64,000 bases of DNA from a bacterium (lineage in GTDB: Bacteria > Actinomycetota > Acidimicrobiia > Acidimicrobiales > Bin134): the NCBI GenBank assembly GCA_026705465.1, contig JAPPAP010000025.1, positions 124,001 through 188,000 on the forward strand, written 5' to 3'. A model generated the notes under the pieces. That model was given only the letters and a program-made list of their open reading frames with translations. It was not told the origin of the DNA and ran no database searches. Shown here one piece after another: positions 16,066 through 32,566 of the stretch. The position numbers and the translations under genes are program-made. How positions within the stretch are numbered: the first letter of the stretch is position 1; every line of letters begins with the position of its first letter.

Positions 16066-16099
16066 TAGTCGAAATTATCTGAAAGATCATGAAAACTGC

Positions 16100-16130: not shown

Positions 16131-16220
16131 TGGCAGGTGTCAACGGCTACTAGGTCTATCCGCAAGAGTAGGTCCCGAAAGGTAGCCTCGTGGTTGTGGA
16201 AAAGACCCCGGAGGCCAGGC

Positions 16221-16469
16221 ATGCAGGATGACCTGGAACAGGTCAAGATGAACCGAGCCGCCTACGAGTCCGACCACCGTGTGCGCTTGGAGCGCGACGA
16301 CCGCGGCAGGATCGCCCTCATGCACGATGGCGATCTTGATGGTGTGTTTGACGACCTTGAAACTGCGAACATCGCAGGTTACGAGCAATTCGGCGAAGGC
16401 AAGTTTTCCCTCATCAGGATCGGCCGCGACTGCGCCGACTTCGGGGCCATGAACCGATCCGTCGGATAG
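16221..16469 (+). CDS. Small hypothetical protein
   Basis: 82 residues if started at ATG 16221 (the frame is open upstream to 16113). The part RIALMHDGDLDGVFDDLETANIAGYEQFGEGKFSLIRIG has the look of a short bacterial protein type in which a 'hydrophobic strand-DGE-variable-FDD...AGxxxFG...FLVRxI' unit stands alone. It lies at the left edge of the less GC-rich defence island, 127 bases upstream of sspE and in the same direction. No role can be assigned. Confidence 0.45.
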   Translation: MQDDLEQVKMNRAAYESDHRVRLERDDRGRIALMHDGDLDGVFDDLETANIAGYEQFGEGKFSLIRIGRDCADFGAMNRSVG

Positions 16470-16596
16470 TCATCCCAGCAAGTGCCAGCGACCCTTCATT
16501 CCAAGTCTGCATGAATGGTCTCCTTGTATGCGGGAAGCCGAGTCAAATGTGTCGACAGGCCAAGATGGCTGTGGTCCTGAGTGCAAGGAGTGACTG

Positions 16597-18735
16597 ATGG
16601 GTATTCACTACAAGACAGCGACTCTTCGGGAAATCATCGATTCGCACACTCTCGGCAAACTCGTATTGCCCAATTTTCAAAGGGAGTTTGTGTGGTCAGT
16701 CGAGGACCAGCGGCAGCTGATGACGTCACTTCTTGCGGATATCCCAATTGGTGCTGTGCTTCTGCTGCTCGGGACTTCGACTGACTTCACGGCGAGGCCC
16801 TTCGGGCGACGGGTAGCGGCTGAACCGACCGACGAGTGCACTTTCCTGCTCGACGGCCAGCAGAGGCTCTCCTGCGTTTACCACTTCCTAAGCGATCCGC
16901 TGAGCGAGGAGTCTGGGTGGGAGTCTGTAACCAGGGACACGTACTACAACCTGCGATATCGATGGCTTGCTCGTGTGGTGCCTGAACAGGACAAACCAGA
17001 CCCTTTCGGGTATTTCCACCTCCACTTCCGTGGAATTCGAGAGGAACCGGAAGCACTCCGCGATTTTGTCGAGCCCTTTAGGGTGAATCTGACGGGCAGC
17101 AGAGATGCCGTCGCTCACCCAGCGTGGCTTGCAGAGAAGCTGGTCAACGAGAATGGCAACGAGGGGGAGCTTAGGTATCGCATCGCTCGCGGTCTCGCTG
17201 ATCAGGGTCTTGTTCCCCTGTGGGAAGTTGTCTCCAGACCCAGAGACGCAGGATCGCTTCATGGGATGGCACTCCAGATCATCGCTCAAACTCGAGCCGA
17301 TCAGTTGGCGGCGCGATCGGGGCCTGTCGATGATGCCGTCCTTGCCGCTGCTCAAGAAGTTCGTCCCGGCCTCGTGCAAGCTGGCGACGAAGTGACATAC
17401 GCCAACCTGTCAGAAGCCATCACATCCATGTCTGCCACCTGGGTGAAGGCGATGCGGGACTACTTCGATGAACTTGGCGATCGAGAGGTTCCGCAGGTGA
17501 TCTTGCCCGGAGACGAAATTGACCGGGCAATCCCAATTTTTGAAGTCATGAACCAGGGTGGTACGCCCCTAACTACATTCGACTTGGTAGTAGCCAAGAT
17601 GGCGCGCCTGTCTGTTGATAGGGAGACGGCTGAGAGGAGCCTCGCCGAACAGCTGATCCAACATGCCTTAGATTCCACCGTCGACGTCACTGATGCACTT
17701 TGGAATATCAACAGTGCCGAACGACCGGACCTCTGGAAAGTCAGTGACTACAACTTCGTTGTCGAACGTGACTCGCTGTCAAACAACTTCAAGAACGCAC
17801 TCCTCAATCTCCTGTCGGCCAGGGCACACAGTTCAGCCTCTTCGGTAGCAGACCTCGACACAGATCACATCAAGCGGCCTGCGATCCTGAAGCTCGACGC
17901 CGCACAAATCGAAGGCCTGTGGAGGGACGCCGCCAATGCTGTCATAAGAGCCTGGGCGTTTCTGAGCCTCCGCTGCGGGATCCGCAACAGCGGAGATCTT
18001 CGCAACAAGCTCATCCTTCTCCCCATCGCCTTTGCAATCTCAAATGATGAAATCTGGGGCGACCCTCAGGCGCTCGATCGCTTGGAGTATTGGTATTGGT
18101 GTACCACCTTGGCGGGCACCTATACGGAGCGTCAGACCGACAACTGCATCAACGACATCAAACTACTCAACGACTGGCTGGTCGAGGGCGACACGAACCC
18201 GTTTGCTGGTCGGGAAGGCCATGTACTGGCCGCACCCAATTACAGCGACGAGACGACATTGCTTCGTCAGCACGAAGAGGCCGGTGTCACGTCCGACGTC
18301 GGCGACTACATCGCACAATACGTACTCAGCCGAAACCCGCGGGACTTTCTCGAGGATTCAAGGCTCGCTGCGTGGGAGTTCGATATGGAACTTGAGCTAC
18401 ACCACGTAATCCCACTTCAGACTGCTACTTCAGTCGGTGAGTCGACGAGCAAGCTCCGGTCCCGGGCAGAGCAGCGCCACATTCTGAACAGTCCGCTCAA
18501 TAGGACCTTCATCCTAAAGACAAGCAACCGCACCCTCGGAGCGCGGTCAATTCACCAGTACATGGAGCACGTGCCGACATCGTCACCTTTGACACATCTC
18601 CTCCCTTCTGGTGCTAGTAGCTACCAGAAGCTACCGACTGAAGACGACGACACTTACTACCGACGCGTTCTCCGCAGGCGGTATGACCATCTCATGCAAG
18701 TCATCCCTGAGGAGCTTGATCGATTGCGAGGCTAG
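16597..18735 (+). CDS. sspE: SspE, phosphorothioate-sensing DUF262/DUF1524 restriction protein
   Basis: 712 residues, with AAGGAG six bases before the ATG. The N-terminal DUF262 domain shows LPNFQREFVW (residues 24-33) and the nucleotide-related DGQQR motif (86-90). The C-terminal DUF1524 nuclease domain has H602-H603-V-I-P and a later N631/N635 in LNSPLNRTFI, consistent with the HNH-type site. In described systems SspE uses these domains to sense phosphorothioate DNA, hydrolyse NTP and nick invading DNA. DUF262-DUF1524 proteins also include GmrSD-type enzymes that cut glucosylated DNA; the adjacent sspABCD genes decide for SspE. It faces the sspBCD cassette tail to tail with 131 bases between. 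Confidence 0.85.
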   Translation: MGIHYKTATLREIIDSHTLGKLVLPNFQREFVWSVEDQRQLMTSLLADIPIGAVLLLLGTSTDFTARPFGRRVAAEPTDECTFLLDGQQRLSCVYHFLSDPLSEESGWESVTRDTYYNLRYRWLARVVPEQDKPDPFGYFHLHFRGIREEPEALRDFVEPFRVNLTGSRDAVAHPAWLAEKLVNENGNEGELRYRIARGLADQGLVPLWEVVSRPRDAGSLHGMALQIIAQTRADQLAARSGPVDDAVLAAAQEVRPGLVQAGDEVTYANLSEAITSMSATWVKAMRDYFDELGDREVPQVILPGDEIDRAIPIFEVMNQGGTPLTTFDLVVAKMARLSVDRETAERSLAEQLIQHALDSTVDVTDALWNINSAERPDLWKVSDYNFVVERDSLSNNFKNALLNLLSARAHSSASSVADLDTDHIKRPAILKLDAAQIEGLWRDAANAVIRAWAFLSLRCGIRNSGDLRNKLILLPIAFAISNDEIWGDPQALDRLEYWYWCTTLAGTYTERQTDNCINDIKLLNDWLVEGDTNPFAGREGHVLAAPNYSDETTLLRQHEEAGVTSDVGDYIAQYVLSRNPRDFLEDSRLAAWEFDMELELHHVIPLQTATSVGESTSKLRSRAEQRHILNSPLNRTFILKTSNRTLGARSIHQYMEHVPTSSPLTHLLPSGASSYQKLPTEDDDTYYRRVLRRRYDHLMQVIPEELDRLRG

Positions 18736-18784
18736 TGCGACATGTGCTCAGGGAACGCCAAGGGGCTCCTGACCCCCTAGTTAG

Positions 18785-18803
18785 GCCGGTGCGCTCCACC
18801 GGC
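18785..18803. terminator. Hairpin between convergent sspE and the 156-residue gene
   Basis: GCCGGTG, a five-base loop and CACCGGC form a perfect 7-bp stem. An AGGGG/CCCCT stem lies about 20 bases to the left. Both are in the 131-base gap between two converging genes, so they may end transcription from both sides; there is no strong T-run. Confidence 0.4.
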
Positions 18804-18866
18804 TCTGGGCGGATCTCGAGCAGGACTCAGCTAAACCTAGACACAGCAATGTCACATCTGAATTGC

Positions 18867-19337
18867 TCATCCATCGGTAGCACCAGAATCGTCAGCCAGG
18901 CTCTTCACCAGGCTTCGGGTCAAGTTCTGCAGTGCGGGGAGATGCCCTGTTTCCATCATCTCTTTGACGAGTGGGATTCCGGCAGCGGCATAGCCTTCAG
19001 CAATATCCAATACCTGTCGGGGCTCTCGAGCTACGAAAGGGTCGCCGGAGTGAGCGATCGCCAACAGGAATAGGAATTCGATGGTGGCCAAGTCTCGTTG
19101 GAATACGACACCGGTGATGAACTCATGTCGTTCAGAAGAGTCGACGGTCATGAATTGCTCTTCCGAAGCACCGACCGCAGCAGCGAGGAGCCAGAAGTCG
19201 ACATACCGCTTGAACGGAGCATCTTCGGGGCTCTTTGAGCCGAATGTTGAGCTGTAGTGATTCACATCCTCGTGATAGGCCTTCGGAACGTGAACTGCGA
19301 GGTTGGCAAACGGGTTGAAATCTTGAGATATGGCCAT
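18867..19337 (-). CDS. Last gene of the phosphorothioation cassette, dnd-associated-protein-4-like
   Basis: 156 residues, alpha-helical, no catalytic motif seen. The pattern APFKRYVDFWLLAAAVG ... FITGVVFQRDLATIEFLFLLAIAH ... EGYAAAGIPLVKEMM recalls small proteins found with Dnd/phosphorothioation loci (the 'dnd system-associated protein 4' type, with its YA-x-GG-like motif), but I cannot confirm this by eye. It ends the run of eight minus-strand genes and starts only two bases after the SMC-like ATPase stop, so it is co-expressed and probably part of the restriction module. DndE is another possibility on size grounds but the sequence does not support it. Confidence 0.6.
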   Translation of the reverse strand: MAISQDFNPFANLAVHVPKAYHEDVNHYSSTFGSKSPEDAPFKRYVDFWLLAAAVGASEEQFMTVDSSERHEFITGVVFQRDLATIEFLFLLAIAHSGDPFVAREPRQVLDIAEGYAAAGIPLVKEMMETGHLPALQNLTRSLVKSLADDSGATDG

Positions 19338-19339
19338 GT

Positions 19340-21454
19340 TTAGATAGCCGCCTTTCGTTCGCAGAGGCGGCAGGAGGAGTGGTAGTCGCAGTCACAGAGC
19401 AATGTCTCGAGCCGGCCGGTCTCTGGGTCGTTGACCAGTTGCTTTGGATAGTGATCGGTAAAGGTCATCGTGTAGGTACGCCCTGCGTATCTGTCGAGGA
19501 TGTCCTCCACACCCTGTGCTTCGCTCCCCGTAAGGAACATGACCAACTGAGTTGAGTTCGCAGCCGCGTATTCGAGCAGGGATCTTCGGACTAAGGCGCT
19601 GGTCATCCCAAGTGGGGTGTCTACAACGTTGGGGGCGCTCACGCCGCTCACACGGACGAGCCCAAGAATGAAGGCAAGTGTCAGAGCTCTACGCTGGGCA
19701 CCGCTGAGATCTTTGTCCGGGTCCAGACGTTGTTCGTCAGAGCCGAACACAACAATGTCATGTTGGCGTGTCAACTCCGCACGGCTGATGAGTCCTCCGG
19801 CCTCTGGATCAGCGACGATCATCTTCAGAAAAATCTCGCTCATCGCGGAGCTCACCTGGTCGACCGTTTCGCTTTCCAACGTCTCGACTGTGTTCCGAAT
19901 GACGGCAAGCAGGTCATTGGCGGCAGTTTCTTCAGCAAGTCGACGTCGGTACTTCTCGACTTTCTTCTGTGCCGCTTGCCGGTCCTTGATGACGGCAGCT
20001 CGGTGTTGGCTTGTCGTCCGAATTTGCTCTGACACTCTTCCCGCGTCACCACTGAGGCGCTTGGCCTCGGCTTCTTCGTCTGTCAGCATCTGTTCGAGTT
20101 CGCTGATGTCCTGTTCGGGGATGTCTCGGATCCTTGTTCTCAGTTCAGCAATGTCCTGCTCGAGCCGGCTTTGGTTTTGGCTACACCCAATGACATCGTC
20201 AAGGGAGTCTCCCGCCTGGGCAACCCACGATCCGGAATCGTCATCGACTCTGGTTGTGGTTTCACGGTGGCGTGCTGCGGAACTGAGGTGAAGAAGGATC
20301 TCATGGCTTTCCTCCAGTTGGTCCACCTCCTCCAGCAACTCGCAAAGGGCAGCATGACCGTCTGTTCCTTCCGATACGTCCCGCCCGCAAATGCATGTTT
20401 CGCGATTGAGCCGGTCTCGCACGACGTCGGGCAGAGTGTCCGGGATGACACCTTCAGTTTCGAGTTGGGCGAGCAAGGTTCCCGCCTGGCGAATTTGCTC
20501 TCTGCCGACTCGTGCAAGAACGTCAGATCCGTTAATGAGCGCTCGTTGCTTCTGAACCAGATTCGTGTGGCGTTTCCGTTCTTTTTCCAGTTGCTGCGTT
20601 CGATCAGCAAGATCTGATTCAAGTTTTCGGCGGTCAGCACCGCCAGCTGCAAGCGCTGAGTGTAGGGCGTCTTTGGCCTTACGTTTGCGACTGTCTGTCG
20701 CCTGCCTGTCTTCATCGATCTGGCTCTTGGAGTCCTCCAATTCCTGCAACCGTTCATTCAGTTCAGCTTCTCGTGCTGCAAGCTGTTCGACGTCAGTGCC
20801 AGCAGCGTCCTTTCGTACCGCGGAGACCGCCTCTCTACGGGCAACATCGACATGTCGTTCTGCCTCTTCGAGGATGTCCAGGCCAAGTAGCTGTCTCACG
20901 GCCCGCTCCACCCGCTCTCGCTTTGCCGAGCGTTCGTCGGTCGCTTCGATGAAGGCCAACGCGCGGTCCCCATCTATGAAGAACACATCCTTGAGGCTTA
21001 TGGGCAAAACCCGATTGGCGATGAAGGCGTTGGGATTTGGCACAGGTTGATCGCCAGTTGGCTTCTGCTCAAAGAGCATCAAATCCGATCCGTCTACTTC
21101 GAAGGTTCCGGAGTTAGCTGGTCGCTCCCTCGTGACGCGGACTAGTTCATATGTGCGCTCCATGCCGGTCTCGTCATCGATAGTGGCAAATTTGATGGAG
21201 ACCTCGATTGCACAGACCTTGCCATCCCTGTCGACAACCCAATCGAGGGGGTGTATTCGGTACGCCGTTCTCTTGCCGGGTAGAGCGTCATCGCCAAAGA
21301 GTCCCCAAGTCAGCGCCGAGAGCAGTGTGGTCTTGCCTGTACCGTTCTCGGCACGGATCACGGTAAGAGGGCTGTCTGGGTCGCGAGCAAATGAGAGCTC
21401 GATGTTGCGGAGCTGCCTGAAGTTCTGGACTTTCGCCTGGACGAGCTTGATCAT
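19340..21454 (-). CDS. SMC/DndD-like ATPase of the SspFGH-type restriction module
   Basis: 704 residues. The N-terminal half-domain has Walker A ENGTGKTTLL (36-45); the C-terminal half has the ABC signature LSGAQRRALT near residue 585 and a Walker B NVVDTPLG, as in DndD and Rad50-like proteins. Between them lies a long coiled coil with ETCICGRD near the middle, a possible zinc-hook-like turn. The last 20 residues hold four Cys (CDCDYHSSCRLCERK), a likely metal site not expected in SMC proteins. Its start codon shares one base with the stop of the upstream 76-residue gene. It is probably the DNA-scanning motor or bridge of the restriction complex; the letter within sspFGH is not assigned here. 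Confidence 0.8.
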   Translation of the reverse strand: MIKLVQAKVQNFRQLRNIELSFARDPDSPLTVIRAENGTGKTTLLSALTWGLFGDDALPGKRTAYRIHPLDWVVDRDGKVCAIEVSIKFATIDDETGMERTYELVRVTRERPANSGTFEVDGSDLMLFEQKPTGDQPVPNPNAFIANRVLPISLKDVFFIDGDRALAFIEATDERSAKRERVERAVRQLLGLDILEEAERHVDVARREAVSAVRKDAAGTDVEQLAAREAELNERLQELEDSKSQIDEDRQATDSRKRKAKDALHSALAAGGADRRKLESDLADRTQQLEKERKRHTNLVQKQRALINGSDVLARVGREQIRQAGTLLAQLETEGVIPDTLPDVVRDRLNRETCICGRDVSEGTDGHAALCELLEEVDQLEESHEILLHLSSAARHRETTTRVDDDSGSWVAQAGDSLDDVIGCSQNQSRLEQDIAELRTRIRDIPEQDISELEQMLTDEEAEAKRLSGDAGRVSEQIRTTSQHRAAVIKDRQAAQKKVEKYRRRLAEETAANDLLAVIRNTVETLESETVDQVSSAMSEIFLKMIVADPEAGGLISRAELTRQHDIVVFGSDEQRLDPDKDLSGAQRRALTLAFILGLVRVSGVSAPNVVDTPLGMTSALVRRSLLEYAAANSTQLVMFLTGSEAQGVEDILDRYAGRTYTMTFTDHYPKQLVNDPETGRLETLLCDCDYHSSCRLCERKAAI

Positions 21455-21684
21455 CAGGATGGTTCCCAGCCAGCTTTGTGCAGAATCGTGCCCAATGCCT
21501 GCGCTTGGTCATTGATCTTCTTCTGAATCTGCGTCTTCGCTTCGAGATGCTCCTTCTCGAGGACAACGATCTGAGCGAGCGTCTCGAGTAGGTCTCTTCG
21601 ATAGCCAGGGACCCTGTCTGACTCGTCGATCTGGTCTACTCGGTCGCGGATTACTGAAAGGAGTTTCTGTTGGCTGACAGTCAC
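21454..21684 (-). CDS. Small coiled-coil protein of the restriction module
   Basis: 76 residues. GTG at 21684 is chosen because GGAGGT stands eight bases upstream, within the gap after the helicase stop. The sequence is helical (heptad-like, with RRDLLETLAQIVVLEKEHLEAKTQIQKK) and lacks motifs. The gene is wedged between the PLD-helicase and the SMC-like ATPase and touches the latter by one base. It is likely a linker or assembly subunit. This could be the middle gene of an sspFGH-like set. Confidence 0.65.
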   Translation of the reverse strand: MTVSQQKLLSVIRDRVDQIDESDRVPGYRRDLLETLAQIVVLEKEHLEAKTQIQKKINDQAQALGTILHKAGWEPS

Positions 21685-21713
21685 TTCGTCTACCTCCACC
21701 TGGGCAGCGGCGA

Positions 21714-23873
21714 TTATACGATGTACTCCAGCCGGACATCTTGGAGCACATCCCTTGGTCCGTCCTTGGAGGCACGGTTCCGAGCGAGATTCGCGAATTC
21801 GTCGCACCTTGCGAGTTCGCCGCCGATCAAGATTCTGATGTCGTCGTCTCTGGGTTCCCCCGGTGGTGGGAGGACCAGAAAGTCGTGAATCGTGGCGTAT
21901 TCCTTTCCTATCGCTGCACACATGCGCAAGACCCGGCCGCGGCGCTGTACCCACTGTCGCTCGACGGTTGTGCTCGCGAGGATGATCGCTGTCGAGATTT
22001 CCGGGACATTCAATCCTTCGTCAAGAACTCGCTTGGCTGTGAGTATTTTGAGCCCTCCACTTCTAAAGGCATCTAGCACAGCGTCAACTAGTTTGGCGTT
22101 TCCTGTCTCCTGGGCGGTGATCTGGTGGAATCTCAACCCAGTCGACCGGATGATGTCGTTCACGGCGTCAAGCTGCCCGGGGTCCTTGTCCGTTGCGTAG
22201 ACGAGCGTGTGCTGAACTTGCCCTGCTGAGCCTTGCAGGAGCAGCGATTCGAGGACATCTAGCTTCCCTTTCGCAGCCTCCAAGATCAACCGTCGTTGGT
22301 TCCGAAGTAGTTGGAGTCGCTCCTCATCTTCTGTGCTTGGATCTCGTCCTGCAGCGAGCCTAAGGCGTCGAATCCGATCACTCAGATGCCTGTAGTCCTC
22401 AAGTTCGTGGTGGCTGAGCTCGACTAGGTGCAGGTGGTAGTCGTAAGGCACAAGACAGACGCCAATCGCATCGCCAAGGCTGAACTCGAATACGACGTTG
22501 CCGAAGTACTCCACCAACCGATCCGATACTTCAGGTTCGTATTGCCTTTCCGGGGTAGCTGACAGACCGAGGCGGTATGCGATCTGATTGGGCGGTGTGT
22601 TGAGAAAGGCGTCGGTCCCGAGATTGTGCACCTCGTCAGCGATCAGCATTAGTGGGCCCTGGAAACGGTCGATTAGCTCGCGAAACTCAGCGTCATTCAA
22701 GAAGTTGTTGGTCACAATTAGGACCTCAACCCCACGATTACCCCGCTCAATGCGTTGGAGTCTCTCGTCGATCTCTCTGAGGCGCCTTCTTCTGTTGTGG
22801 CTGCCTGCGACATACGGCGTGAGAGCGAAGTTCTGACATTCATCCGCCCACTGTGCGATGAGGGGGAGTGTTGGAGCGGCCACGACTACAACCAAGCGTC
22901 GAACTTCACGCCAGAGTCGCCAAGCGCAGAGGAGAGCGGTGATGGTCTTCCCCGAGCCAGTGGCCATTGCCAGGATCCCGCGTCGCCCGGCACCTTCCCA
23001 CCTGAATACTGCCTTTCCCTGATGAGAGAATGGCCCTGCCTCCCAAACGAGATCAGAAGGGGGAGCGAATCGCTCAAGGTTGACGCTGGCCTCGACCGAG
23101 CTTCCAAGATCGCTCCTGTACACCCTTCCTTCAAGATCGAGGGCTTTGCGATAGTCAGCCTCGGTTGGAGGCCGAGTTGTGTCATAAGAATCAACTAAGT
23201 CCTCTTGCAGCGCTAGTGGAAGATCGACAGCAACTGCGTGGGGCTTAGAGTTCGTCCAGTAGGCCTCGAATTCGTCAACGGCATCACGACATGCGGTTTC
23301 GCTATCCCCATCACGCCAGCTGCGATGGAGATTGAGCCGCTCGACATTTCCCAGGAGAGCTTGGCCGGTGAAGTTCGCCGACCCCGAAAGTACAGCTACG
23401 TCTTTGCCGGCTCGAAATATCCACTCCTTTAGGTGGAATGTCGCATCCCGCACCAGCACGATCTTCATTTGCAGTCGACGCGTGGCGAGCAAGTACGCCA
23501 AGCACTGTTGCGTATGTTGCGCTAGCGCGCTGGCAAGCGCTGTTTCGTCGGTGAATGCAATCTTGATCGCGTCCGTGAGGGCGTCAGGGGGTGTCCTGAC
23601 CCCCAGGCGAATTGCTTCCTGGTCGGCCTCGGATAGCACGGGACTGACAAGGAGGCGCAGTGGCTGATCGCTTCGCAGGATGTACGCCGCCAACCCATGC
23701 GACAACTCTCGCAACGCGGCACCACCGAAGTAGCCGACCATGCATTCGAATCGATCTGATACCTGTAGCGCAGGAACGATCACATCTTCGACAACCTCGT
23801 CGTCGGGCCGTCGCCAGGTTGGCTTCCGGTCGTCTAGGCATCTCAGCCGCGACACTGATTGCCAGGCCGCCAC
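21714..23873 (-). CDS. PLD-type nuclease fused to SF2 helicase, SspFGH-type module
   Basis: 719 residues from a GTG one base after the sspD stop. Residues 30-200 form a phospholipase-D-like domain with the HLKE (147-150) and GSANFT (164-169) halves of the HxK...GSxN motif. From about 285 an SF2 helicase follows: ATGSGKT (304-310), the DEVH box in LIADEVHNLG, and a second RecA domain with QRRGRVLRM (motif VI). Such fusions resemble the R subunits of Type III-like or Dnd-associated restriction enzymes. It probably translocates on and cuts DNA lacking phosphorothioates. Only one HxK half is visible, so dimerisation would be needed for catalysis. Confidence 0.8.
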   Translation of the reverse strand: MAAWQSVSRLRCLDDRKPTWRRPDDEVVEDVIVPALQVSDRFECMVGYFGGAALRELSHGLAAYILRSDQPLRLLVSPVLSEADQEAIRLGVRTPPDALTDAIKIAFTDETALASALAQHTQQCLAYLLATRRLQMKIVLVRDATFHLKEWIFRAGKDVAVLSGSANFTGQALLGNVERLNLHRSWRDGDSETACRDAVDEFEAYWTNSKPHAVAVDLPLALQEDLVDSYDTTRPPTEADYRKALDLEGRVYRSDLGSSVEASVNLERFAPPSDLVWEAGPFSHQGKAVFRWEGAGRRGILAMATGSGKTITALLCAWRLWREVRRLVVVVAAPTLPLIAQWADECQNFALTPYVAGSHNRRRRLREIDERLQRIERGNRGVEVLIVTNNFLNDAEFRELIDRFQGPLMLIADEVHNLGTDAFLNTPPNQIAYRLGLSATPERQYEPEVSDRLVEYFGNVVFEFSLGDAIGVCLVPYDYHLHLVELSHHELEDYRHLSDRIRRLRLAAGRDPSTEDEERLQLLRNQRRLILEAAKGKLDVLESLLLQGSAGQVQHTLVYATDKDPGQLDAVNDIIRSTGLRFHQITAQETGNAKLVDAVLDAFRSGGLKILTAKRVLDEGLNVPEISTAIILASTTVERQWVQRRGRVLRMCAAIGKEYATIHDFLVLPPPGEPRDDDIRILIGGELARCDEFANLARNRASKDGPRDVLQDVRLEYIV

Positions 23874-23874
23874 G

Positions 23875-24723
23875 TCACAGCGCGCACACTGTGCAGGGGG
23901 TTGTGTCGTCGTCCTCGTTCAAGACATCGGCCAAGGAATCCACCAAGGGGAGGTTTGGCCGGGTGCTGGCGGTACGGGCGATGGCTGCTTCGTGGCGTTC
24001 GAGGATTTCATCTCGCCTAGCGCGGAGTTGTACGAGTGTCTCACCGCCCGACCAGGTGTACTGGCGGCCTTTCATTGCCTGCTTGCCGAAGTCCGCATCG
24101 CCGTCTACCCCGGCGTCCTGGAGGACTTTCTGCTCGATGGCGACGGCTCGCTCAAATAGGTCGGGGTGGCGGTCGGCGAGGCCGATCCATTCCGCTTTGC
24201 GCTGGTAGAAGCAGAAGTAGCACCCCGAACGTGTTCGCCACTCGTAGTATGCCGGGAGGCCGATGCCAGCATCGTCGAGTATCCGCATCACGCCGGCGTG
24301 GTCGATGCTGTCTTCGACGAACGGGAAGCGGCTCTCGATATTCGGCTTGGTAGAGACGTAACCCTTGCGATTGGCCTCGTCGGATCGTATGGCGACATAG
24401 GAGATTGCTGGATCGTCGCCGATCCACTGCTCCAGCGGCTTTATCTTCATGTTCTTGGTGCACCAGCGCATCTGGGGTGATGGTAGGGCACCCCTGAAGA
24501 TCTCGAACCAGTGGTCGAATCCCCGATCAGCATTCAGCCGGGCAATTGGCTTGGCCAATATCACCTCTAGCCGGGTTAGGAACTCGTAGGTCTCGGGAAG
24601 TTCGGCGCCGGTGTCGCAGAAGAAGTACTCCATCTCAGGCACCCGGTCCTTCAGGTACACCGCCAATGCACTGGAGTCCTTGCCTCCCGAGATGCCGCAG
24701 ATATGCCGGATTTCCTCAGGCAA
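23875..24723 (-). CDS. sspD: SspD, PAPS-reductase/ATP-pyrophosphatase-like sulfur transfer protein
   Basis: 282 residues. The PP-loop SGGKDSS (12-18) and CDTGAELPE (36-44) place it in the PAPS-reductase/ATP-sulfurylase superfamily used by DndC and SspD to activate the DNA phosphate for sulfur replacement. Further markers are RWCTKNMKI (Cys88), GCYFC (Cys168, Cys171) and the C-terminal CTVC (Cys277, Cys280), which could hold an iron-sulfur cluster. It is much shorter than DndC (about 500), which favours the Ssp type. It overlaps the end of sspC by eight bases and is followed after one base by the helicase gene. Confidence 0.85.
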   Translation of the reverse strand: MPEEIRHICGISGGKDSSALAVYLKDRVPEMEYFFCDTGAELPETYEFLTRLEVILAKPIARLNADRGFDHWFEIFRGALPSPQMRWCTKNMKIKPLEQWIGDDPAISYVAIRSDEANRKGYVSTKPNIESRFPFVEDSIDHAGVMRILDDAGIGLPAYYEWRTRSGCYFCFYQRKAEWIGLADRHPDLFERAVAIEQKVLQDAGVDGDADFGKQAMKGRQYTWSGGETLVQLRARRDEILERHEAAIARTASTRPNLPLVDSLADVLNEDDDTTPCTVCAL

Positions 24724-27700
24724 TTTGTGCCTCCTCTACTTGCTGAAGCTCAGCTTCAGTTGTGCCCGCACCTTCCTCGGACCTTCCTGTCGACAGCATC
24801 CGCTCACCTAGCAGTGCAAGAAGTGCGTGATCAGCACGCCGCTGGGAACCGGTCACTTCCGAGAGCTTGTCAAGAGCGTCATCGAGGACCTGCTCAAGCA
24901 TCTGACGACTGCTTTGGTCGATTCCAACAAGGCGAGCCAGTTCTGAGCCGTCAGCTTGGGTGACCGTCACACGTAGAGCATCGAATGGGCCACCTCCGTC
25001 AGCTCTGCGTTCTGCGTGAAGGGCCACTAGCCGGTGGAAGGCGGCAATGTGCTCGGGCATTACACGTTGGAATCGCGCCAAGTCATCATCGGTCCATTCG
25101 GCGGGAGCCTTTTCGGTTACCACCATCGCAATTGCCTTTATCCAATCGATGTCGTTGTGGAGGCTCTCGTTGGCGAGAGCAAAGACAAACGCCCGAACAT
25201 TCGGATCGAGCACTTCGTTCTCTAGAGCAGCGGCTTGCCCGACGACTGCGGTGCGGGAGCTCTCACAACACTCCTCAAGAAGCAGGTCGTATAAGTCACC
25301 GAGGAGATTGCCAAAGCAACCGGTGAGATCCTCAAGAGCCTTGCCGACACTGTCTGCGTAGTCTCGCGCCTTCGTGTATGTCTTGGTGTTTGCAGGCACT
25401 GGCCTGAATCCGAGTGCTTTTGGTAGAGCAGTGAACAGGAGTTCATCCGGCTCAACTGCGGTGACAAGTGCTTCCCGTGCCTTTGTGGCGGTTTCCGGGA
25501 GGTTCCCAGTCCGAAGTGTGTAGTTGTCGAGTCCGTTAACTTGGGAAACGAGATGGCCGACTATGGCAAGAACGTTGGCAACTCGGTGTTGGCGGAACGA
25601 TGGGCGAACTTCCAGCCGAGCTGCCAATTCGTCAATGACTTGCCGCCGCGCCCCTGTTGTGTTTGCAAAATGCTTGAATTCGAAGTGACTGGGGTTACGC
25701 ACCATTCGTTCTGAGAGCTCTGGACTAAGCAGCGGCTTGAACGTTCCGTGCTCGTAGATGGCCACATCGTCCGCGAATGCAAGCAAGCCGGCGGTTGCAA
25801 CCACCGGAATCACTGCTGCCTTCATCCCTATCGGTGGGGACATGAGCGCCGCGTACAGATCGTTGAGATTTACGCGCCGTTTTCTAGAGCGCCTGAATTC
25901 ATCCTCCATGGTCTTCCACGCCGGCAGCAGTGAGGGATCCTTGGGTCTGCTGAAAGCTGAAGCGTCATTCTGCGAATCGACCTGGTGTATGCCAGTTCGC
26001 TCGAGAACGGCCCGATACATCGCGACCTCTGGCCCATAGCCCTCAAATCCGAGATCGACTTCACTAGCGCGTTCGATCATCCCGGTCAGCAGCATGCCCC
26101 GCGCCTTTGCCCCTTGTGAGGTGAGTGCAGTGCGATTGATCATCTCATTTCCGACCCGCGGTGCTGACTGGTACGTCCTATCGGCGGCTGCCGACAGCGC
26201 TGCGGTCCCGCGACCACTAGTCAGAGGTTCTGCTCCGTCTTCCGTCAGAAGGAACCAAGCACAATTCTGCGGATCGAAAGTTGAGATGAAGGCTTCGTGA
26301 AAAAGCGTTTCAGCTTGCGCGAGCTGTTCCCCGAGCTCGCTGCGAACTACCCAGTCATTGATCACTTCGGGCAGTTCGAGAGCCTGGTGGATTGCAGCAA
26401 GATTCCGCGCTGACGTGTCCAAAGCCGTAAGGGATGTGGGAAGCGCAGCGACAATCGGCTTGCTCAATCCGGCTTCGGCGATGGCCGGACAACGGGATTC
26501 AGAATCGACTAGAAGCAACAACTCGCCATCAACCTCCGAGAATGGGCTGAGTGGCTTAACGACCTCCGATGTTGTTGCGTAGCGGCGGCCAAAGACGCGA
26601 AGCGTGTCGTGCTCAGCGGAGTGGCGGGCTGCTATCACCGGAGTGGGAGAATCGAAGCGCGAAAGAACCTCGATTAGGGGGAGCTTTGCCAGGGTCGCTG
26701 AGGCACCTTCAACGAGTGTGCGGACGTCCAGATCGCTTCCTTGCCATATTCGGTATTCGTCAGCGAAAGAGCGGTATGTGATGAGACCGCGCTGTTCTAG
26801 TTTCCGGAGTGTTGTCGTTGGTCGCTTCGCAACCTGTCCCAGAAGAGTCTTTGAAGCTCGTATCGTTCCCGAAGCTCCGACCAGATTCAGAATGGCGATT
26901 GACTTCGCCAAGGTCCATTCCTGTGCACTGAGGCCGTGCGCATCCCGCAGGCAAGTGGCGATTTCTCTCCACCGGCTCCCGTTAACGCCGGGAGATCCAG
27001 CAATTTCTCCTTCAATGAAGTAGTCGTATACCTCAGACAGCCCTAAGACGGGGAGTGGCTCCGTGTCGGCAAGTTCCTGTCGTGCAAGAACAGCTGGAAC
27101 TGCTGCGGCATCGCTTCCTGCAAGGAAAGAGAAGAGCGTTCGTTCGTTCTGCCCATACCGGCTGCACAACTCAGGAAGGATGGCCGCGGCGAGCGGGTGG
27201 AGCGGAAAGCAATCGGCGACAGCGTCCCTAGTGGACAGGTCCTCAAGACCCAGCTTTCCCATGGCCGTTGCCATGCCTGAAGCCCAGGAGTCGATCCGTT
27301 CACAAAGCGAGTCGTCAACTTCAAAGACGGTTTCGATCAGGGCTCGCGTCTCCGCTGGTGAATCCGCGAAGGGCACATCTTCGAATCGTCCTTGTACTTT
27401 GGCCCACTCACGATGTTCCAAGTTTCCAGCTGTTGCGAAGTAGTCCTCGAACGACAGATGTTGCAGAGTCAAGGTGAAAATTGGGATTTCACTTCCCTGC
27501 CCGGCCTCCGCGAGTTGCTGAAGGAGATAAGGGTCGGAATCGACCGAGCTGCTGATTGCCTCAAGGTTCTTCCCAAACTCGTCGATCACGATGAGGAGGG
27601 GTGCTGATTCAGCAAGGCACCGAGCGACAGCAAGGAGCGCTGCGGGAGATGGTCCAGTCCGACGAGGATCGTCAGAGGATTGGTCGGACAGGGCATCTGT

Positions 27701-28186
27701 GAGTGCCTGTGCGGCCTTGAACTTTGTGCGGGGTGGGATCCTGCCAAATCGGCGTATGACGGCCGAGTGAAGAGCTCGTAGGACTGTGTGGCTAATCGGC
27801 TCCCGGCTCGCTGTTGCTACTGCAAGACAAAAGCCCGACTGGCCTGTGCCATGAAGTTTGTGGGCATTGAGGATCTTCGCTCTTAGATCGGGGGAAGCAG
27901 ATCCAATGAGGTCTAGAGCCTTGTCGCGTACTTCCCCTTCTTCGCCGAATGCTCCATCAATCAGAAGAGCTAGCGAGGACTTTCCTGATCCATACGGTCC
28001 GGTGATTGACCACGCCCCACCCGCTGTGCTGCTTGTAGCTCGGGTGGCGAGACGATCTACTACATCTACAGCCCGTGCGGTAACGATGTAGCCGTCAAGG
28101 GGGTCGACGGAGGACACATCGCGCTCGAGATTCGCCGAGCGGGCGAAGCGCGCTGAGACAGACACAAGGTCGGCGAGAGTGGTCAT
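24716..28186 (-). CDS. sspC: SspC, large P-loop ATPase of the phosphorothioation complex
   Basis: 1156 residues. An N-terminal P-loop domain has Walker A GPYGSGKS (63-70) and Walker B LLIVIDEFGK (about 197-206); the other 900 residues are mostly helical with no further motif that I recognise. The size and fold recall BrxC/PglY-type ATPases, but no BREX methylase or phosphatase is present and the flanking DUF4007 and PAPS-reductase genes fit SspB-SspC-SspD. In described systems SspC hydrolyses ATP and helps SspB and SspD in single-strand sulfur insertion. It overlaps sspB by four bases. Confidence 0.8.
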   Translation of the reverse strand: MTTLADLVSVSARFARSANLERDVSSVDPLDGYIVTARAVDVVDRLATRATSSTAGGAWSITGPYGSGKSSLALLIDGAFGEEGEVRDKALDLIGSASPDLRAKILNAHKLHGTGQSGFCLAVATASREPISHTVLRALHSAVIRRFGRIPPRTKFKAAQALTDALSDQSSDDPRRTGPSPAALLAVARCLAESAPLLIVIDEFGKNLEAISSSVDSDPYLLQQLAEAGQGSEIPIFTLTLQHLSFEDYFATAGNLEHREWAKVQGRFEDVPFADSPAETRALIETVFEVDDSLCERIDSWASGMATAMGKLGLEDLSTRDAVADCFPLHPLAAAILPELCSRYGQNERTLFSFLAGSDAAAVPAVLARQELADTEPLPVLGLSEVYDYFIEGEIAGSPGVNGSRWREIATCLRDAHGLSAQEWTLAKSIAILNLVGASGTIRASKTLLGQVAKRPTTTLRKLEQRGLITYRSFADEYRIWQGSDLDVRTLVEGASATLAKLPLIEVLSRFDSPTPVIAARHSAEHDTLRVFGRRYATTSEVVKPLSPFSEVDGELLLLVDSESRCPAIAEAGLSKPIVAALPTSLTALDTSARNLAAIHQALELPEVINDWVVRSELGEQLAQAETLFHEAFISTFDPQNCAWFLLTEDGAEPLTSGRGTAALSAAADRTYQSAPRVGNEMINRTALTSQGAKARGMLLTGMIERASEVDLGFEGYGPEVAMYRAVLERTGIHQVDSQNDASAFSRPKDPSLLPAWKTMEDEFRRSRKRRVNLNDLYAALMSPPIGMKAAVIPVVATAGLLAFADDVAIYEHGTFKPLLSPELSERMVRNPSHFEFKHFANTTGARRQVIDELAARLEVRPSFRQHRVANVLAIVGHLVSQVNGLDNYTLRTGNLPETATKAREALVTAVEPDELLFTALPKALGFRPVPANTKTYTKARDYADSVGKALEDLTGCFGNLLGDLYDLLLEECCESSRTAVVGQAAALENEVLDPNVRAFVFALANESLHNDIDWIKAIAMVVTEKAPAEWTDDDLARFQRVMPEHIAAFHRLVALHAERRADGGGPFDALRVTVTQADGSELARLVGIDQSSRQMLEQVLDDALDKLSEVTGSQRRADHALLALLGERMLSTGRSEEGAGTTEAELQQVEEAQIA

Positions 28187-29238
28187 GCAATTGCCTCCGT
28201 CCGATGCCGGGCACTGGCTTCGCGGAGCCTTGACATTGCTGGTGATTGCTCAAGCAGCAAATCTCGATCCACTGGTTCGTCACCGTCAGGACCGATGGCT
28301 GGAGCCTCGGGCTTCGTTTCGTAGTAGTCATTGAGGACAGCAACCGCAATCTCGGCAGCAGCGGTCTTCCATGCGACTTGTTGGGCGCCGGTAGTTGCCA
28401 GCAACTCCATCGAAGGTTGTTTCTTTGCGATCCGGTCCAGGGCGACATGGAGGTCCTGCTCGCCAAGTCTGAAGGCTCGGCCTGGACTGCCTGGCTCGTT
28501 AGCGAGGTGTGCCAGGGTGATCGTCCGCCCGCCTTGCCGGCAGCGAGACAGATAGTCCAGCACGGCAAAGGCCACGATCTCATCAGGCAATGTCGGTTTG
28601 GGTCCTAGTACAAATCGGTGATTGCCAGTGGCGGCAGAGTGGACGATTAGCCCAAGTTCGCGCATTGGACAGTCAAGTAGATCGTCGAAGCTCGTTCGTG
28701 AGGTTCGTACCGCAGGTGCGTAGGTGCGGAGGAGTGCAGAGACGTCCTTCTCGATCGCTGTGTGGTGAGGCATCGGCCATGCTCCGGCCGCCTCGATCTG
28801 GGCAGTTATGGCTCCAGCCAGCATGTCATCGTCGAAGTTGACGGCGTGCAGCTCATTGAAGGCAAGCCACCAGACAGGCAACAGAGATGGAGGGGCGAGA
28901 AGCATCCAGTGAAGGAGCCACACTGTCCCGGGGTCTTCCATGTAGGGGTCCCACCCATCTGGCCCGAAGAGGCTGTGGCCGAATCGGGTGGGAATCATGT
29001 CAGGGGAGCGCTTGTTGACTGATTCGGGATCCGAAGTGATGATCTTGGCCGCTAGGCCCCAGAACTTGATCGAGCGGACCATGTTCTTTCCGACGCCGAT
29101 TGCAACCGGAGCGTCATCGGCTGTGAACCCACGTTCATTCGCTGCTGCTGTGGCGTATGCCTTGCGGAACCATCCATAGCGGGGATGAAACGTCTCATGT
29201 CTGGCAAATACACCTTCAGCGGCATCGGCAAGCCTCAT
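28183..29238 (-). CDS. sspB: SspB, DUF4007 protein (DNA nickase subunit)
   Basis: 351 residues. The DUF4007 pattern is clear: HETFHPRYGWFRKAY, GVGKNMVRSIKFW, then PTRFGHSLFG and DPYMEDPGTVWLLHW. In the described SspABCD system the protein of this type nicks one strand so that sulfur can be put in. It overlaps sspA by four bases upstream and sspC by four bases downstream. Assignment rests on the domain and on the fixed A-B-C-D order; nicking itself is taken from the family. Confidence 0.82.
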   Translation of the reverse strand: MRLADAAEGVFARHETFHPRYGWFRKAYATAAANERGFTADDAPVAIGVGKNMVRSIKFWGLAAKIITSDPESVNKRSPDMIPTRFGHSLFGPDGWDPYMEDPGTVWLLHWMLLAPPSLLPVWWLAFNELHAVNFDDDMLAGAITAQIEAAGAWPMPHHTAIEKDVSALLRTYAPAVRTSRTSFDDLLDCPMRELGLIVHSAATGNHRFVLGPKPTLPDEIVAFAVLDYLSRCRQGGRTITLAHLANEPGSPGRAFRLGEQDLHVALDRIAKKQPSMELLATTGAQQVAWKTAAAEIAVAVLNDYYETKPEAPAIGPDGDEPVDRDLLLEQSPAMSRLREASARHRTEAIA

Positions 29239-30398
29239 CGGTCATCGCTTCCGGTCATTGCACGGACGTACTCCACTGCTTTCACGGCCTGTCGAATGGC
29301 GGTCTCTATCTCGGCCTCGGTAGTGAACCGACCCAAGCTGAAGCGGACCGATTCGAATGCCTCGTCTCGTGAGAGCCCCATGGCCAAGAGAACTTGGGAG
29401 GGCTCAATGGAGCCCGAACTGCACGCAGAACCGGTCGAAATCGCTACCGGGTCCATGTTGAACACCACCGCCTCTGCATCAGCCCCTTCGAATCGCACAC
29501 TTGCTGTGTTGGGGAGACGTCTGTTCGGGTCTCCGTTCTCGTGGACTCCAGCGAGCTCTGAGCGCAAACCATCCACTAGCCGATCCCTTAGTGCTCTTAC
29601 CCTGGCTGATTCGGAGTCTCGTTCTTCTACGACCAGGTTGGCCGCAGCTCCGAGACCCACGATTCCGGCTACGTTCAACGAACCTGACCTCAGGCCTCGT
29701 TCATGCCCTCCTCCATGGGTCACGGGCCGAAGTTGAGGTAGCGATTGGCGTGTGCCGACCAGTGCACCCACTCCTCCCGGGCCGCAGATCTTGTGGCCGC
29801 TCATCGACAAGAAGTCAATAGGGGTGTCGCTCACCGAACATGGAAGTCGACCCACCATCTGGGTGGCATCACAGTGAAACACTGCCCCGATGGCTTGCAC
29901 TTGTTGCGCCACCTCCTCAATCGGATTCAGAACACCGGTTTCGCTGTTGGCGGCCATCACCGAAACAGCCAAGACGTCCGGTCCTAGCAGCGAATCGAGC
30001 TCATCTAGGTCTATATGTCCACCCGGGGTAACCCCGACTACATCCACCTTTGCCTTACCTTGCTTATGCAGCCATTGGGCCGGTTCGCGTACCGAGGCAT
30101 GCTCTACAGCCGAGACCACGATCCTGTTCCGCTCAGCAGGCGCGCCTTCAGCCAGTCCGATCAGTGCCAAGTTATTGGCTTCGGTGGCCCCAGCGCAGAA
30201 AATAACCCCTGATGGGGAGGCATCAGCGAGGGTGGCAACGCGTTCGCGTGCATCTTCCACTGCTGCTGCTTGTCGTTGACCGAAGCGATGAACTGAAGCA
30301 GCGTTGCCTACTCCGCTTGTTAAAGCAGGCATCATGGCATCGGCCACTCGTGGGTCGAGTGGTGCAGACCCGTTGTAGTCGAGGTAAACCTCGTGCAC
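29235..30398 (-). CDS. sspA: SspA/DndA-type cysteine desulfurase
   Basis: 387 residues from a GTG preceded by TTAGGAGA. PLP-dependent NifS/IscS-like enzyme that takes sulfur from cysteine for transfer to DNA. The PLP lysine lies in SGHK (Lys203) and the catalytic cysteine in STGSACSSGS (Cys326); the opening VYLDYNGSAP is typical. An IscS for general use cannot be excluded from sequence alone, but the four-base overlap with sspB ties it to phosphorothioation. It heads a run of eight tightly packed minus-strand genes (about 11.5 kb) that would be read from a promoter to its right. Confidence 0.88.
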   Translation of the reverse strand: MHEVYLDYNGSAPLDPRVADAMMPALTSGVGNAASVHRFGQRQAAAVEDARERVATLADASPSGVIFCAGATEANNLALIGLAEGAPAERNRIVVSAVEHASVREPAQWLHKQGKAKVDVVGVTPGGHIDLDELDSLLGPDVLAVSVMAANSETGVLNPIEEVAQQVQAIGAVFHCDATQMVGRLPCSVSDTPIDFLSMSGHKICGPGGVGALVGTRQSLPQLRPVTHGGGHERGLRSGSLNVAGIVGLGAAANLVVEERDSESARVRALRDRLVDGLRSELAGVHENGDPNRRLPNTASVRFEGADAEAVVFNMDPVAISTGSACSSGSIEPSQVLLAMGLSRDEAFESVRFSLGRFTTEAEIETAIRQAVKAVEYVRAMTGSDDR

Positions 30399-30523
30399 GC
30401 CATCTCCTAAGGGGCTGATTAGGGAATTACACCGCTGTCATTGACGGTAGTCCCGCTGACTCCCTAGATGATGGACATTGCCTATGACAGTTTCTCCAAA
30501 ACCCCAGGCCGCCGCAGGGTGGC

Positions 30524-30540
30524 TGGCACAAATTGTGCCA
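30524..30540. promoter_or_regulatory. Operator-like palindrome upstream of the ssp operon
   Basis: TGGCACAAATTGTGCCA is a perfect 8+1+8 inverted repeat located 126-142 bases upstream of the sspA start codon, in the 176-base gap to the nucleotidase gene. It has the size of a dimeric repressor site; with a three-base loop it could also be a short hairpin after the nucleotidase gene, but there is no T-run. Confidence 0.45.
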
Positions 30541-30574
30541 ACCGTCCCCTGGGCGGATTCGGTGCTGGTTGGGG

Positions 30575-32566
30575 TTAGATGGTGAGGCGCTTGCTGCGGC
30601 GGGACAGGCTGGCCAGGAGGAGGCCAGCTAGGACGAGGGTGGCGGCGATGATGAAGAGCAGGCGGCTTTCCGCGCCGGTGGCGGGGAGTTCTTCGCCGGT
30701 CATGTCGTCCATGTCGTCAGCCATTCCATCGTCCATGTCATCGTCCATGTCGTCGGCCATGTCGTCCATGTCCGCGGCTACTGCCGTGATGCGGCCTTCG
30801 CCGCCTTCGGGGTAATCGGCAGCAGTGATGGTGCCGCCGAGGCCGTCGGCGATGTAGGCGGCCAGGGACTGCTGGTCGGTGAGGCCCAGGTGGGTGCGGG
30901 TGCCGTCGCCGAACAGGTACTGGTCGCCGCCGTTGGCCAGGAAGTTGAGGGTGACCAGGGCGATGGATGGGGCACCGTCCACCACGGCTCCGTCGCTCAC
31001 GATGGCGGTGCCATCGTCCAGGGTGATCGACTGCACTCGGGAGCCCTCGGTGGTGACGGTGTCGTCTTCGCCGATCTCTTGAGGAGTGCCGGCGGGGTCG
31101 TACACCAGGCTCATGCCCGCGATCTGGGCGAAGCGGCCGCTGGAGCTCTCCACCCTTGACACGGCGTTCTCGAAGATCACCTTCATCTGGGCGGGCGATA
31201 CGTCTTCGATCACGGTCACGAAGTTGCCGAACGGGGAGATGTTGAAGGTCTCCAATTCGCTGATCGGGCCCACCGGGATCACCGAGTCGTTGCGGATGCC
31301 GCCACCATTTTGGAGGGCGACCACCGGCTCGGGCACGCCGAAGTCGGCGGCCAGCCGCTGTCCATTCCACAGCAGGGCGTCGGCCAGCAGGTTGCCTTGA
31401 TTGGTCTCGTGGGTGCGGATGCCGGGCGAGCGTCGTCCGTCCAGGGGCACCTCGGTGTTGCCCACCGGGGAGGCGGCCAGCTCTTCGAGGGCCGCGGCCA
31501 CCGGCTCGGTCACCTGGGCCACCACGTCGGGGTGGGGCTCAACCGCGTCGGGCTCGTCCCCGCCGGCCACCCGGCGCAGGCCGCTGGTCTCGTCGATGGC
31601 GGTCACATTGCCGTCAGCATCGACAGTCAAGATCAGCTGGCCAACGTAGGTGTAGTCGCCCGGCGTGGTCACGATCGGGACGCTGTTGCCGTCGGCCAGG
31701 GTGGCGGTGAGCGGGTAGGGGCCGTAGGGGTCGCCGTCGCCGGGCAGCAGCGCGGTGTTCTCGTCGGCCAATAGCGCCCCGCTGCCACCGGCCACGATGG
31801 CGTCCACCCCGGTGAGCTCAGCGGCCAGATCGGTCTCGCCGCTCAGGGCCTGCAAGTGGGTGGACAACACGATGATGTCCACCCCGTCGCCGGTGAGCCG
31901 GTCGATCTCGGCCTGCACGATCTCGGCCACATTCGACATCACCGCCACGTTTCGGGGGCTGGAGATGTAGGAGAGCTCCGGGGTGGTGGCGCCGATGATG
32001 CCGATGCGCCGACCCTGCTTCTCCACCACTGCCGACGGGGCGATACGGCCCTCATCGACCAGCGCAGCCAGCGCCGGCTCGCCGGAGAAGTCCAGGTTGG
32101 CGCTGATGAACGGCGCAGTGGTGGTCTCGGTGATGAACCGGGCCAACAGGTCGGGGCCCAGGTCGAACTCGTGGTTGCCGATGGTCAACGCGTCATAGCC
32201 GATGAGGTTGAGGGCCAGGGCGTCGTAGAACGGGCTGTCGTCGCCAAGGCTCACCGATAGCTCGGGGCCGCTCAGGAAGTTGTCGCCCGAGGAGATGGTT
32301 ATCACCGCCGCGCCGTCATCGGTGGCCTGGGACCGCAGCTGGTGTACCAGGGAGGCGAAGCGGGCCACGCCGCCGTAATCGGGCAAGTCCGACGACGCCT
32401 GCACCAGCTGCGACTCGCCGTCATTGTGGTGCAAGATCACCAATTGGAGCTCGCCGCTGTCACCGGCTGCGTCACCGTCGTCTTGCGCATTTGCCGCTAC
32501 CGCGCCCAGCAGCGCCGTGACCAGCCCCAGGGTGATCAATGCCCACACGATCCTTCGAATGCCCAC
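30575..32566 (-). CDS. Cell-wall-anchored 5'-nucleotidase/UshA-family metallophosphoesterase
   Basis: 663 residues, secreted. A signal peptide (residues 1-28) is followed by the metallophosphatase domain with HHND (46-49, in place of the usual HTND), SGDNFLSG and IGNHEFDLG, then the nucleotidase C-terminal domain (QNGGGIRND, GNFVTVIED). Near the end is an acidic Asp/Met-rich stretch (about residues 595-623) and a sortase signal LPATG (627-631), hydrophobic helix and basic tail. It should remove phosphate from nucleotides outside the cell and be bound to the wall. A sortase gene is not in the window. AAAGGAGA precedes the ATG. Confidence 0.88.
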   Translation of the reverse strand: MGIRRIVWALITLGLVTALLGAVAANAQDDGDAAGDSGELQLVILHHNDGESQLVQASSDLPDYGGVARFASLVHQLRSQATDDGAAVITISSGDNFLSGPELSVSLGDDSPFYDALALNLIGYDALTIGNHEFDLGPDLLARFITETTTAPFISANLDFSGEPALAALVDEGRIAPSAVVEKQGRRIGIIGATTPELSYISSPRNVAVMSNVAEIVQAEIDRLTGDGVDIIVLSTHLQALSGETDLAAELTGVDAIVAGGSGALLADENTALLPGDGDPYGPYPLTATLADGNSVPIVTTPGDYTYVGQLILTVDADGNVTAIDETSGLRRVAGGDEPDAVEPHPDVVAQVTEPVAAALEELAASPVGNTEVPLDGRRSPGIRTHETNQGNLLADALLWNGQRLAADFGVPEPVVALQNGGGIRNDSVIPVGPISELETFNISPFGNFVTVIEDVSPAQMKVIFENAVSRVESSSGRFAQIAGMSLVYDPAGTPQEIGEDDTVTTEGSRVQSITLDDGTAIVSDGAVVDGAPSIALVTLNFLANGGDQYLFGDGTRTHLGLTDQQSLAAYIADGLGGTITAADYPEGGEGRITAVAADMDDMADDMDDDMDDGMADDMDDMTGEELPATGAESRLLFIIAATLVLAGLLLASLSRRSKRLTI

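Follow-up and report, generated by a model that had tools for sequence, protein, structure and literature searches.

What effector is paired with an SspABCD-type phosphorothioate (PT) writer in a bacterium of the class Acidimicrobiia? The question is raised by a 64,000-nucleotide stretch of contig JAPPAP010000025.1 (assembly GCA_026705465.1, positions 124,001 to 188,000 of the forward strand), hereafter the window, in which a preliminary description listed nine genes and read them as an SspABCD writer served by the known effectors SspE and SspFGH. All nine genes are present and uninterrupted. Eight of them lie end to end on the minus strand, from window position 30398 down to 18867, and a DUF262 gene on the plus strand converges toward the 3′ end of this operon. 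From the sequence comparisons presented here, we consider it likely that the locus is an SspABCD–PbeABCD system, in which the Ssp writer is coupled to a Pbe effector in defence.

By their profile matches, the first four genes are an SspABCD writer, as had been described (lengths in amino acids, aa; PAPS, phosphoadenosine phosphosulfate):

29235..30398, minus strand: SspA, cysteine desulfurase, 387 aa (PADLOC SspA 434 bits, 1.5e-130; Aminotran_5; active-site motif STGSACSSG)
28183..29238, minus strand: SspB, DUF4007 protein, 351 aa (PF13182 2.7e-78; PADLOC SspB 326 bits, 4.7e-98)
24716..28186, minus strand: SspC, ORC/Cdc6-type AAA+ ATPase, 1156 aa (PADLOC SspC 1018.6 bits; Walker A GPYGSGKSS; LLIVIDEFGK)
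23875..24723, minus strand: SspD, PP-loop (PAPS-reductase-like) ATP pyrophosphatase, 282 aa, TTG start (PADLOC SspD 359 bits, 5.2e-108; SGGKDSS; C-terminal CTVC)

The SspB family profile matches the solved SspB 6juf/6lb9 at E 6.9e-91, and the catalytic motifs of the writer are intact, including the cysteine of the pyridoxal phosphate enzyme (STGSACSSG), the PP-loop (SGGKDSS) and the Walker A motif (GPYGSGKSS). The product of SspABCD is a one-strand PT (PMC8092258). A DUF4007 protein, a PAPS reductase and a BrxC/SspC-type ATPase are also common to bacteriophage exclusion (BREX) type 4 (PMC12839542), but SspD here is short and stand-alone, and PADLOC matched neither BrxL nor PglZ among the nine locus proteins. 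A C-x2-C motif at the extreme C terminus of SspD, plus an internal CxxC, occurs in the window (23875-24723) and in nearly all related loci.

The next four genes had been taken for an SspFGH-like set; their matches point instead to PbeABCD (AF2, AlphaFold2; pLDDT, predicted local distance difference test score):

21714..23873, minus strand: PbeA, HKD/PLD endonuclease fused to an SF2 helicase, 719 aa (PADLOC PbeA 593 bits, 2e-178; HLKEWIFRAGKDVAVLSGSANFT, GSGKT, DEVH)
21454..21684, minus strand: PbeB, small coiled-coil protein, 76 aa, GTG start (identified solely by its position between PbeA and PbeC)
19340..21454, minus strand: PbeC, CxC-type (Rad50/DndD-like) ABC ATPase with a C-terminal Cys4 tail, 704 aa (PADLOC PbeC 188 bits, 7.5e-56)
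18867..19337, minus strand: PbeD, DndE-fold protein, 156 aa (TIGR04062 dnd_assoc_4 1.1e-5, below cut-off; AF2 pLDDT 90.8)

Described Pbe systems comprise an HKD nuclease joined to an SF2 helicase (PbeA), a small, fast-evolving PbeB, a CxC-hook ABC ATPase (PbeC) and a DndE cognate (PbeD) (Rakesh et al., PMC10853773). In the window, PbeA retains an intact HKD-type motif (HLK...GSAN) and matches TIGR04095 at 2.5e-104, under the profile's own cut-off. PbeB has no convincing match among PADLOC, Pfam and TIGR-type profiles; related small open reading frames lie between PbeA and PbeC in most loci. The protein described earlier as an SMC-like ATPase is indeed an ATPase, more precisely of the CxC/DndD type. 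It scores higher as PbeC than as DndD (188 versus 144 bits) but is distant from the PADLOC PbeC models, which give 887 bits for the PbeC of locus L077. Its CxC hook (CICG at 354-357; C354/C356) and its tail cysteines (C687, C689, C695 and C698) are invariant in 24 aligned rows. The AF2 model (pLDDT 84) has a Rad50/SMC-like fold (Foldseek Rad50 9e-19), with coiled-coil helices 192-545 surrounding the hook. DndE structures are the sole entries matched by the PbeD model (4lrv, Z 8.6, 100/104 residues at 3.0 Å; 5wtu, Z 7.8); its Foldseek E-value alone is not significant, and the fold assignment stands on the structural Z. PADLOC does not detect PbeD, and such loci could escape standard annotation because the profile scores are weak.

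The protein features of PbeABCD and CxC–DndE systems are found here, namely the nuclease–helicase fusion, the CxC hook at the apex of a coiled coil (about 400 residues in such systems) and the DndE-like neighbor. The PbeA-B-C-D order, the protein types and the link to a PT writer are shared with haloarchaeal DndCDEA–PbeABCD (PMC6459918) and with CxC ABC-ATPase/DndE systems (PMC10853773), whereas the Dnd or methylase partner of those descriptions is replaced by SspABCD. SspABCD–SspFGH likewise joins an SspBCD writer to a multi-gene effector cassette, but SspFGH consists of three genes, of which SspF has a Walker A motif and SspH resembles FtsK/SpoIIIE (PMC8092258). We rejected it for the window, where the genes number four, belong to Pbe families and include no FtsK-type match. 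Writer and effector are tightly joined, much as the preliminary description had it: SspA, SspB, SspC and SspD each overlap the next gene by 4-8 nucleotides, the SspD stop is separated from the collinear PbeA start by a 1-nucleotide gap, and the last two genes, PbeC and PbeD, follow at spacings of -1 and +2 nucleotides.

This pairing recurs well outside the window. A scan of GTDB contigs, with a PbeA alignment from four ssp-linked loci as query, yielded 33 true PbeA loci. SspBCD genes lie within 10 kb in 26 of them, a fraction biased upwards by the ssp-linked query; for four of the remaining seven the contig breaks off close to the operon, and the other three (L050, L051 and L055) have long flanks that lack SspBC. 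The eight-gene order of the window, sspABCD–pbeABCD, is found again in Geodermatophilus, Thiothrix, Novosphingobium and a Sphingomonadaceae plasmid. Elsewhere an extra gene lies between SspD and PbeA (L052, L056 and L060), or the two modules are convergent (L035, L036, L038, L041, L043 and L045), divergent (L049) or arranged with Pbe first (L063). Judged by the titles and origins of the records, loci of this kind occur in at least six phyla (Actinomycetota, Pseudomonadota, Gemmatimonadota, Latescibacterota, Acidobacteriota and Rhodothermota), and carriers include Geodermatophilus obscurus DSM 43162, Thiothrix fructosivorans ATCC 49748, Novosphingobium sp. PC22D, Hephaestia mangrovi and Sphaerisporangium perillae.

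Unbiased counts come only from a census of the class Acidimicrobiia and from a sample of Actinomycetota. Among 395 Acidimicrobiia genomes, 16 have SspB and 13 have PbeA. A PbeA score above 500 bits is reached in nine cases: in eight of them SspB lies no more than about 10 kb away on the same contig, and in the remaining one the contig holds the end of SspD. None of the four weaker PbeA proteins adjoins Ssp (Fisher test for Ssp linkage of strong PbeA, 1.9e-14). The Actinomycetota sample (396 genomes) contains seven full-length PbeA proteins, three of them ssp-linked, and nine SspB proteins, three of them pbe-linked. Pbe accompanies only a minority of plasmid-borne Ssp, since only two of the eight neighborhoods viewed (from 14 PbeA records) are Ssp-linked, compared with 96 SspB records in all. 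Scanning viral contigs with PbeA returned no relatives.

Ssp-linked Pbe proteins are also distinct by descent. In the PbeA tree, a 37-row clade (approximate likelihood ratio support, SH-aLRT, 100) contains 30 of the 31 ssp-linked rows, and one single change divides ssp from dnd labels. A C-terminal C-x-C-x(n)-C-x2-C pattern is present in all 36 testable PbeC proteins of this clade and in none of 14 outside it; we infer that this Cys4 tail is a putative metal-binding knuckle. PbeA carries HxKxWxF...GSxN within the clade and mostly HxKxG...GSxN outside it, so that both proteins differ from those of known Pbe systems. A conjugative plasmid of Rhizobium indigoferae (L077:7433-18335) likewise has Ssp beside Pbe, but in the order C-D-A and converging on SspDCBA. 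Its PbeA falls outside the clade, and it has neither the Cys4 tail nor the clade PbeA motif. Judged from these sequences, L077 is a second, independent pairing, and Ssp and Pbe therefore met at least twice; the tail, being absent from L077, is a mark of the clade rather than a proven requirement.

Within the genus of the window, writer and effector look like swappable modules. Genome G676, which has the same right flank, encodes an SspABCD 82-91% identical to that of the window, and its PbeA, PbeC and PbeD are 38%, 29% and 22% identical, respectively. Nucleotide homology runs as far as window position 23874, the stop codon of SspD, and is picked up again over 102 bases (18742-18641), where 31 codons of the DUF262 gene persist as a remnant. 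Genome G539 combines the genus-type SspABCD with another cassette (a helicase, an HSP90-like ATPase and a PLD-type protein), and in the SspC tree loci with Pbe are intermixed with loci without it. This same-site swap, the G539 cassette, the mixed tree and protein distances that correlate less between the modules than within them together make Ssp look like a writer platform for exchangeable effector cassettes.

Several related loci have other genes at these positions. SspABCD adjoins a three-gene cassette in L121:15233-19638, L119:1470-5450 and L028:3736-8170, one of which is in a viral contig; the cassette encodes a PLD-less PbeA-like SF2 helicase, an HSP90/MzaB-like HATPase of ~600 aa and a DrmC/ZacB-like (PLD-type) protein of ~320 aa, and is possibly a further Ssp effector. 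A Sigma70 region-4 protein of 500-1300 aa, for which the window has no counterpart, is encoded just ahead of PbeA in Pbe loci of either linkage, Ssp or Dnd (L129:8148-10412, L052:8391-9962, L060:7889-9976, L051:7920-9974, L021:5087-8980 and L078:6873-9926). Pbe genes of the Ssp-type clade are preceded in L050:1-9974 and L055:1536-9974 by a divergent PP-loop protein, a cysteine desulfurase and an HSP90/sacsin-like ATPase, with no SspBC; L055 additionally has a DUF6339 protein ahead of Pbe. These genes, standing in place of SspBC, are perhaps another sulfur writer. DndB-like (PF14072) genes lie beside SspD in L132:11225-12487 and L118:3514-5148, in contrast to the description of DndB in Dnd systems, and similar DGQ-motif genes occur in L038 and L041.

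The ninth gene, convergent with the operon, had been described as DUF262–DUF1524 and named SspE:

16597..18735, plus strand: P0001, DUF262 (GmrSD_N)–HNH protein, 712 aa, candidate second effector (PF03235 1.2e-22)

The DUF262 assignment holds, and an HNH-like C terminus (HHxIPL...NSPLNR) is visible by alignment, but no Pfam DUF1524 profile matches. By profile, we rejected P0001 as an SspE: it reaches the PADLOC SspE model only at E 0.006 across residues 8-93 (86 residues), does not match the solved SspE 6jiv and has ~37 N-terminal columns in common with the SspE alignment in a profile–profile comparison. Genuine SspE of related ssp-pbe loci, used as a positive control, matches at E 1e-183. Compared with SspABCD–SspE, the locus thus has the writer in common and a DUF262 gene nearby, but its operon partner is PbeABCD. 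Nor is there support for P0001 as a conserved part of the operon, as no full-length homolog was found in the other ssp-pbe loci examined, including L032 (96% identity).

P0001 could nevertheless be a second, SspE-like effector that senses PT, which would be compatible with an SspABCD–PbeABCD system; to this role we give slightly less than even weight. Its sole full-length relative in 72,556 plasmids, which shares the DGQQR and HNH-like motifs, is encoded on a Vibrio scophthalmi plasmid and converges on SspD-SspC-SspB, with the cysteine desulfurase (SspA) beside them. The head-on geometry is that of SspE in L035, L036 and L043, and the DUF262 remnant of G676 (31 aa) is at the same place. Against such a role, P0001 is a separate transcription unit, is missing from every other ssp-pbe locus examined and belongs to a family with only two known members; neither 376 Actinomycetota genomes nor the viral contigs contained a further relative. 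Genuine SspE genes are present in four ssp-pbe loci (L035:5743-8052, L036:15024-17321, L043:5700-8039 and L046:14902-17232), of which three are flanked by PbeD and SspD, and on their gene content these are natural two-effector systems. The idea of one writer with more than one effector therefore stands as a theme, but not for SspE and SspFGH in the window.

The genes sit in an island, as the preliminary description stated. The complete chromosome L157 of the same genus (G678) aligns up to window position 16095 and resumes at 32739; between these points it has 1.6 kb of different sequence. Because window 16.1-32.7 kb is absent at this site in L157, the segment is an inserted island, and its GC is foreign (56-59% versus 65-70% in the neighborhood):

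16096..32739, no strand: inserted island, extent relative to L157 (G678), from alignment to the complete same-genus chromosome
30575-32566: 5′-nucleotidase-like gene within the island, probably unrelated to the ssp-pbe system

An Acidimicrobiia host, as first proposed and here a metagenome-assembled genome, is borne out by L031, an Acidimicrobiia locus whose PbeA is 100% identical to that of the window; L032 belongs to Candidatus Poriferisocius. The bacteria that carry L031 and L032 are presumably of sponge origin, and we take the host to be a sponge symbiont.

We propose the following mechanism. SspA and SspD would mobilize sulfur, and SspB and SspC would select and nick DNA; the result would be a PT on a single strand of the host genome (at a CCA-type motif in studied Ssp systems). 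PbeC and PbeD, a Rad50/DndD-like ATPase with a DndE-fold partner, would then scan DNA and sense whether, or how densely, it is marked. Where incoming DNA is unmarked, they would license PbeA, through its helicase and HKD nuclease, to block replication or to cut; PbeB probably regulates. In archaea, Pbe paired with Dnd requires PT for its activity: it halts viral replication with no visible cleavage, and virus that bears PT is left untouched (PMC6459918). Roughly half of the PT sites in archaea are hemi-modified (PMC6459918), which makes a one-strand mark a plausible Pbe signal.

How far do the data favor this coupling over other explanations? Several observations weigh against it. L050, L051 and L055 carry Pbe of the same clade on long flanks without SspBC, so the link is not absolute, and about half of the Acidimicrobiia loci have SspABCD without Pbe. 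Distances in Ssp and Pbe do correlate (0.47-0.52; 0/2000 permutations), which speaks for the coupling, but cross-module co-evolution is only moderate beside the 0.955 for PbeA–PbeC and 0.914 for SspC–SspD within modules. Archaeal Pbe was also read as not cutting viral DNA, an ill fit with a role for the HKD nuclease, and cutting by PbeA is disputed between the paper that found Pbe (PMC6459918), which says no, and Rakesh et al. (PMC10853773), who argue yes. A rival view is that the defence island merely stacks two systems that work independently, with Ssp orphan or otherwise partnered and Pbe using another mark or none: the island has foreign GC, Ssp often occurs without Pbe, three members of the Pbe clade lack SspBC, and solitary Pbe has been reported (PMC6459918). 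Stacking does not readily explain a shared operon with a 1-nucleotide junction, the linkage of all nine strong PbeA genes in one class, recurrence of the pairing in several gene orders and six or more phyla, or a Pbe clade dedicated to Ssp. PADLOC, Pfam and TIGR-type profiles moreover identified no DNA methylase among the nine proteins. We therefore judge stacking to be quite improbable.

Coupling could instead serve abortive infection, with Pbe attacking the cell's own DNA when a virus disturbs PbeB or PT marking. Such a response has been proposed for CxC systems (PMC10853773), and the HKD-type motif of PbeA is intact; however, PT-marked virus escaped archaeal Pbe, which fits self/non-self discrimination, and archaeal Pbe without PT did not act (PMC6459918). 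An abortive mode seems to us unlikely, though less so than stacking. The original assignment of SspE and SspFGH can now be given hardly any weight. Gene number and position would suit it, with a DUF262 gene converging on the operon, the two effectors are reported to be compatible (PMC8092258) and related loci do contain genuine SspE, but the family membership of the genes behind SspD refutes SspFGH, and P0001 reaches neither SspE models nor structures. The SspABCD–PbeABCD system may further represent a distinct class of PT immunity, in which a Rad50/DndD-like scanner has been re-tooled (by the PbeC Cys4 tail and the altered PbeA HKD motif) to read one-strand PT on an Ssp platform for interchangeable cassettes, with a new DUF262–HNH effector family reading the same mark in this host; we advance this broader view only tentatively, and rather doubt it as a whole.

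In open-access full text we found no description of Ssp paired with Pbe, and papers name both as separate systems. Pbe has been described as a partner of Dnd or of methylases (PMC6459918, PMC10853773), and pbeA-D have been counted with PT genes, ssp and dnd pooled (PMC7464106). What appears to be new is the pairing, along with the PbeC Cys4 tail; the components themselves are known. Of 2,678 sspBCD loci, 2,211 lack both SspE and SspFGH, and the authors proposed further restriction partners (PMC8092258); conversely, 320 of 553 pbeAC loci lack dndCD, 165 of these being without any modification gene (PMC6459918). The pairing predicts that part of the orphan sspBCD set is the missing half of the orphan pbeAC set, and vice versa. 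It also offers a natural test of what Pbe reads, with one type of effector found next to both Dnd, which marks two strands, and Ssp, which marks one. Carriers such as Geodermatophilus obscurus DSM 43162 look like cultured strains, and the Dnd-linked and Ssp-linked Pbe proteins differ in nameable places.

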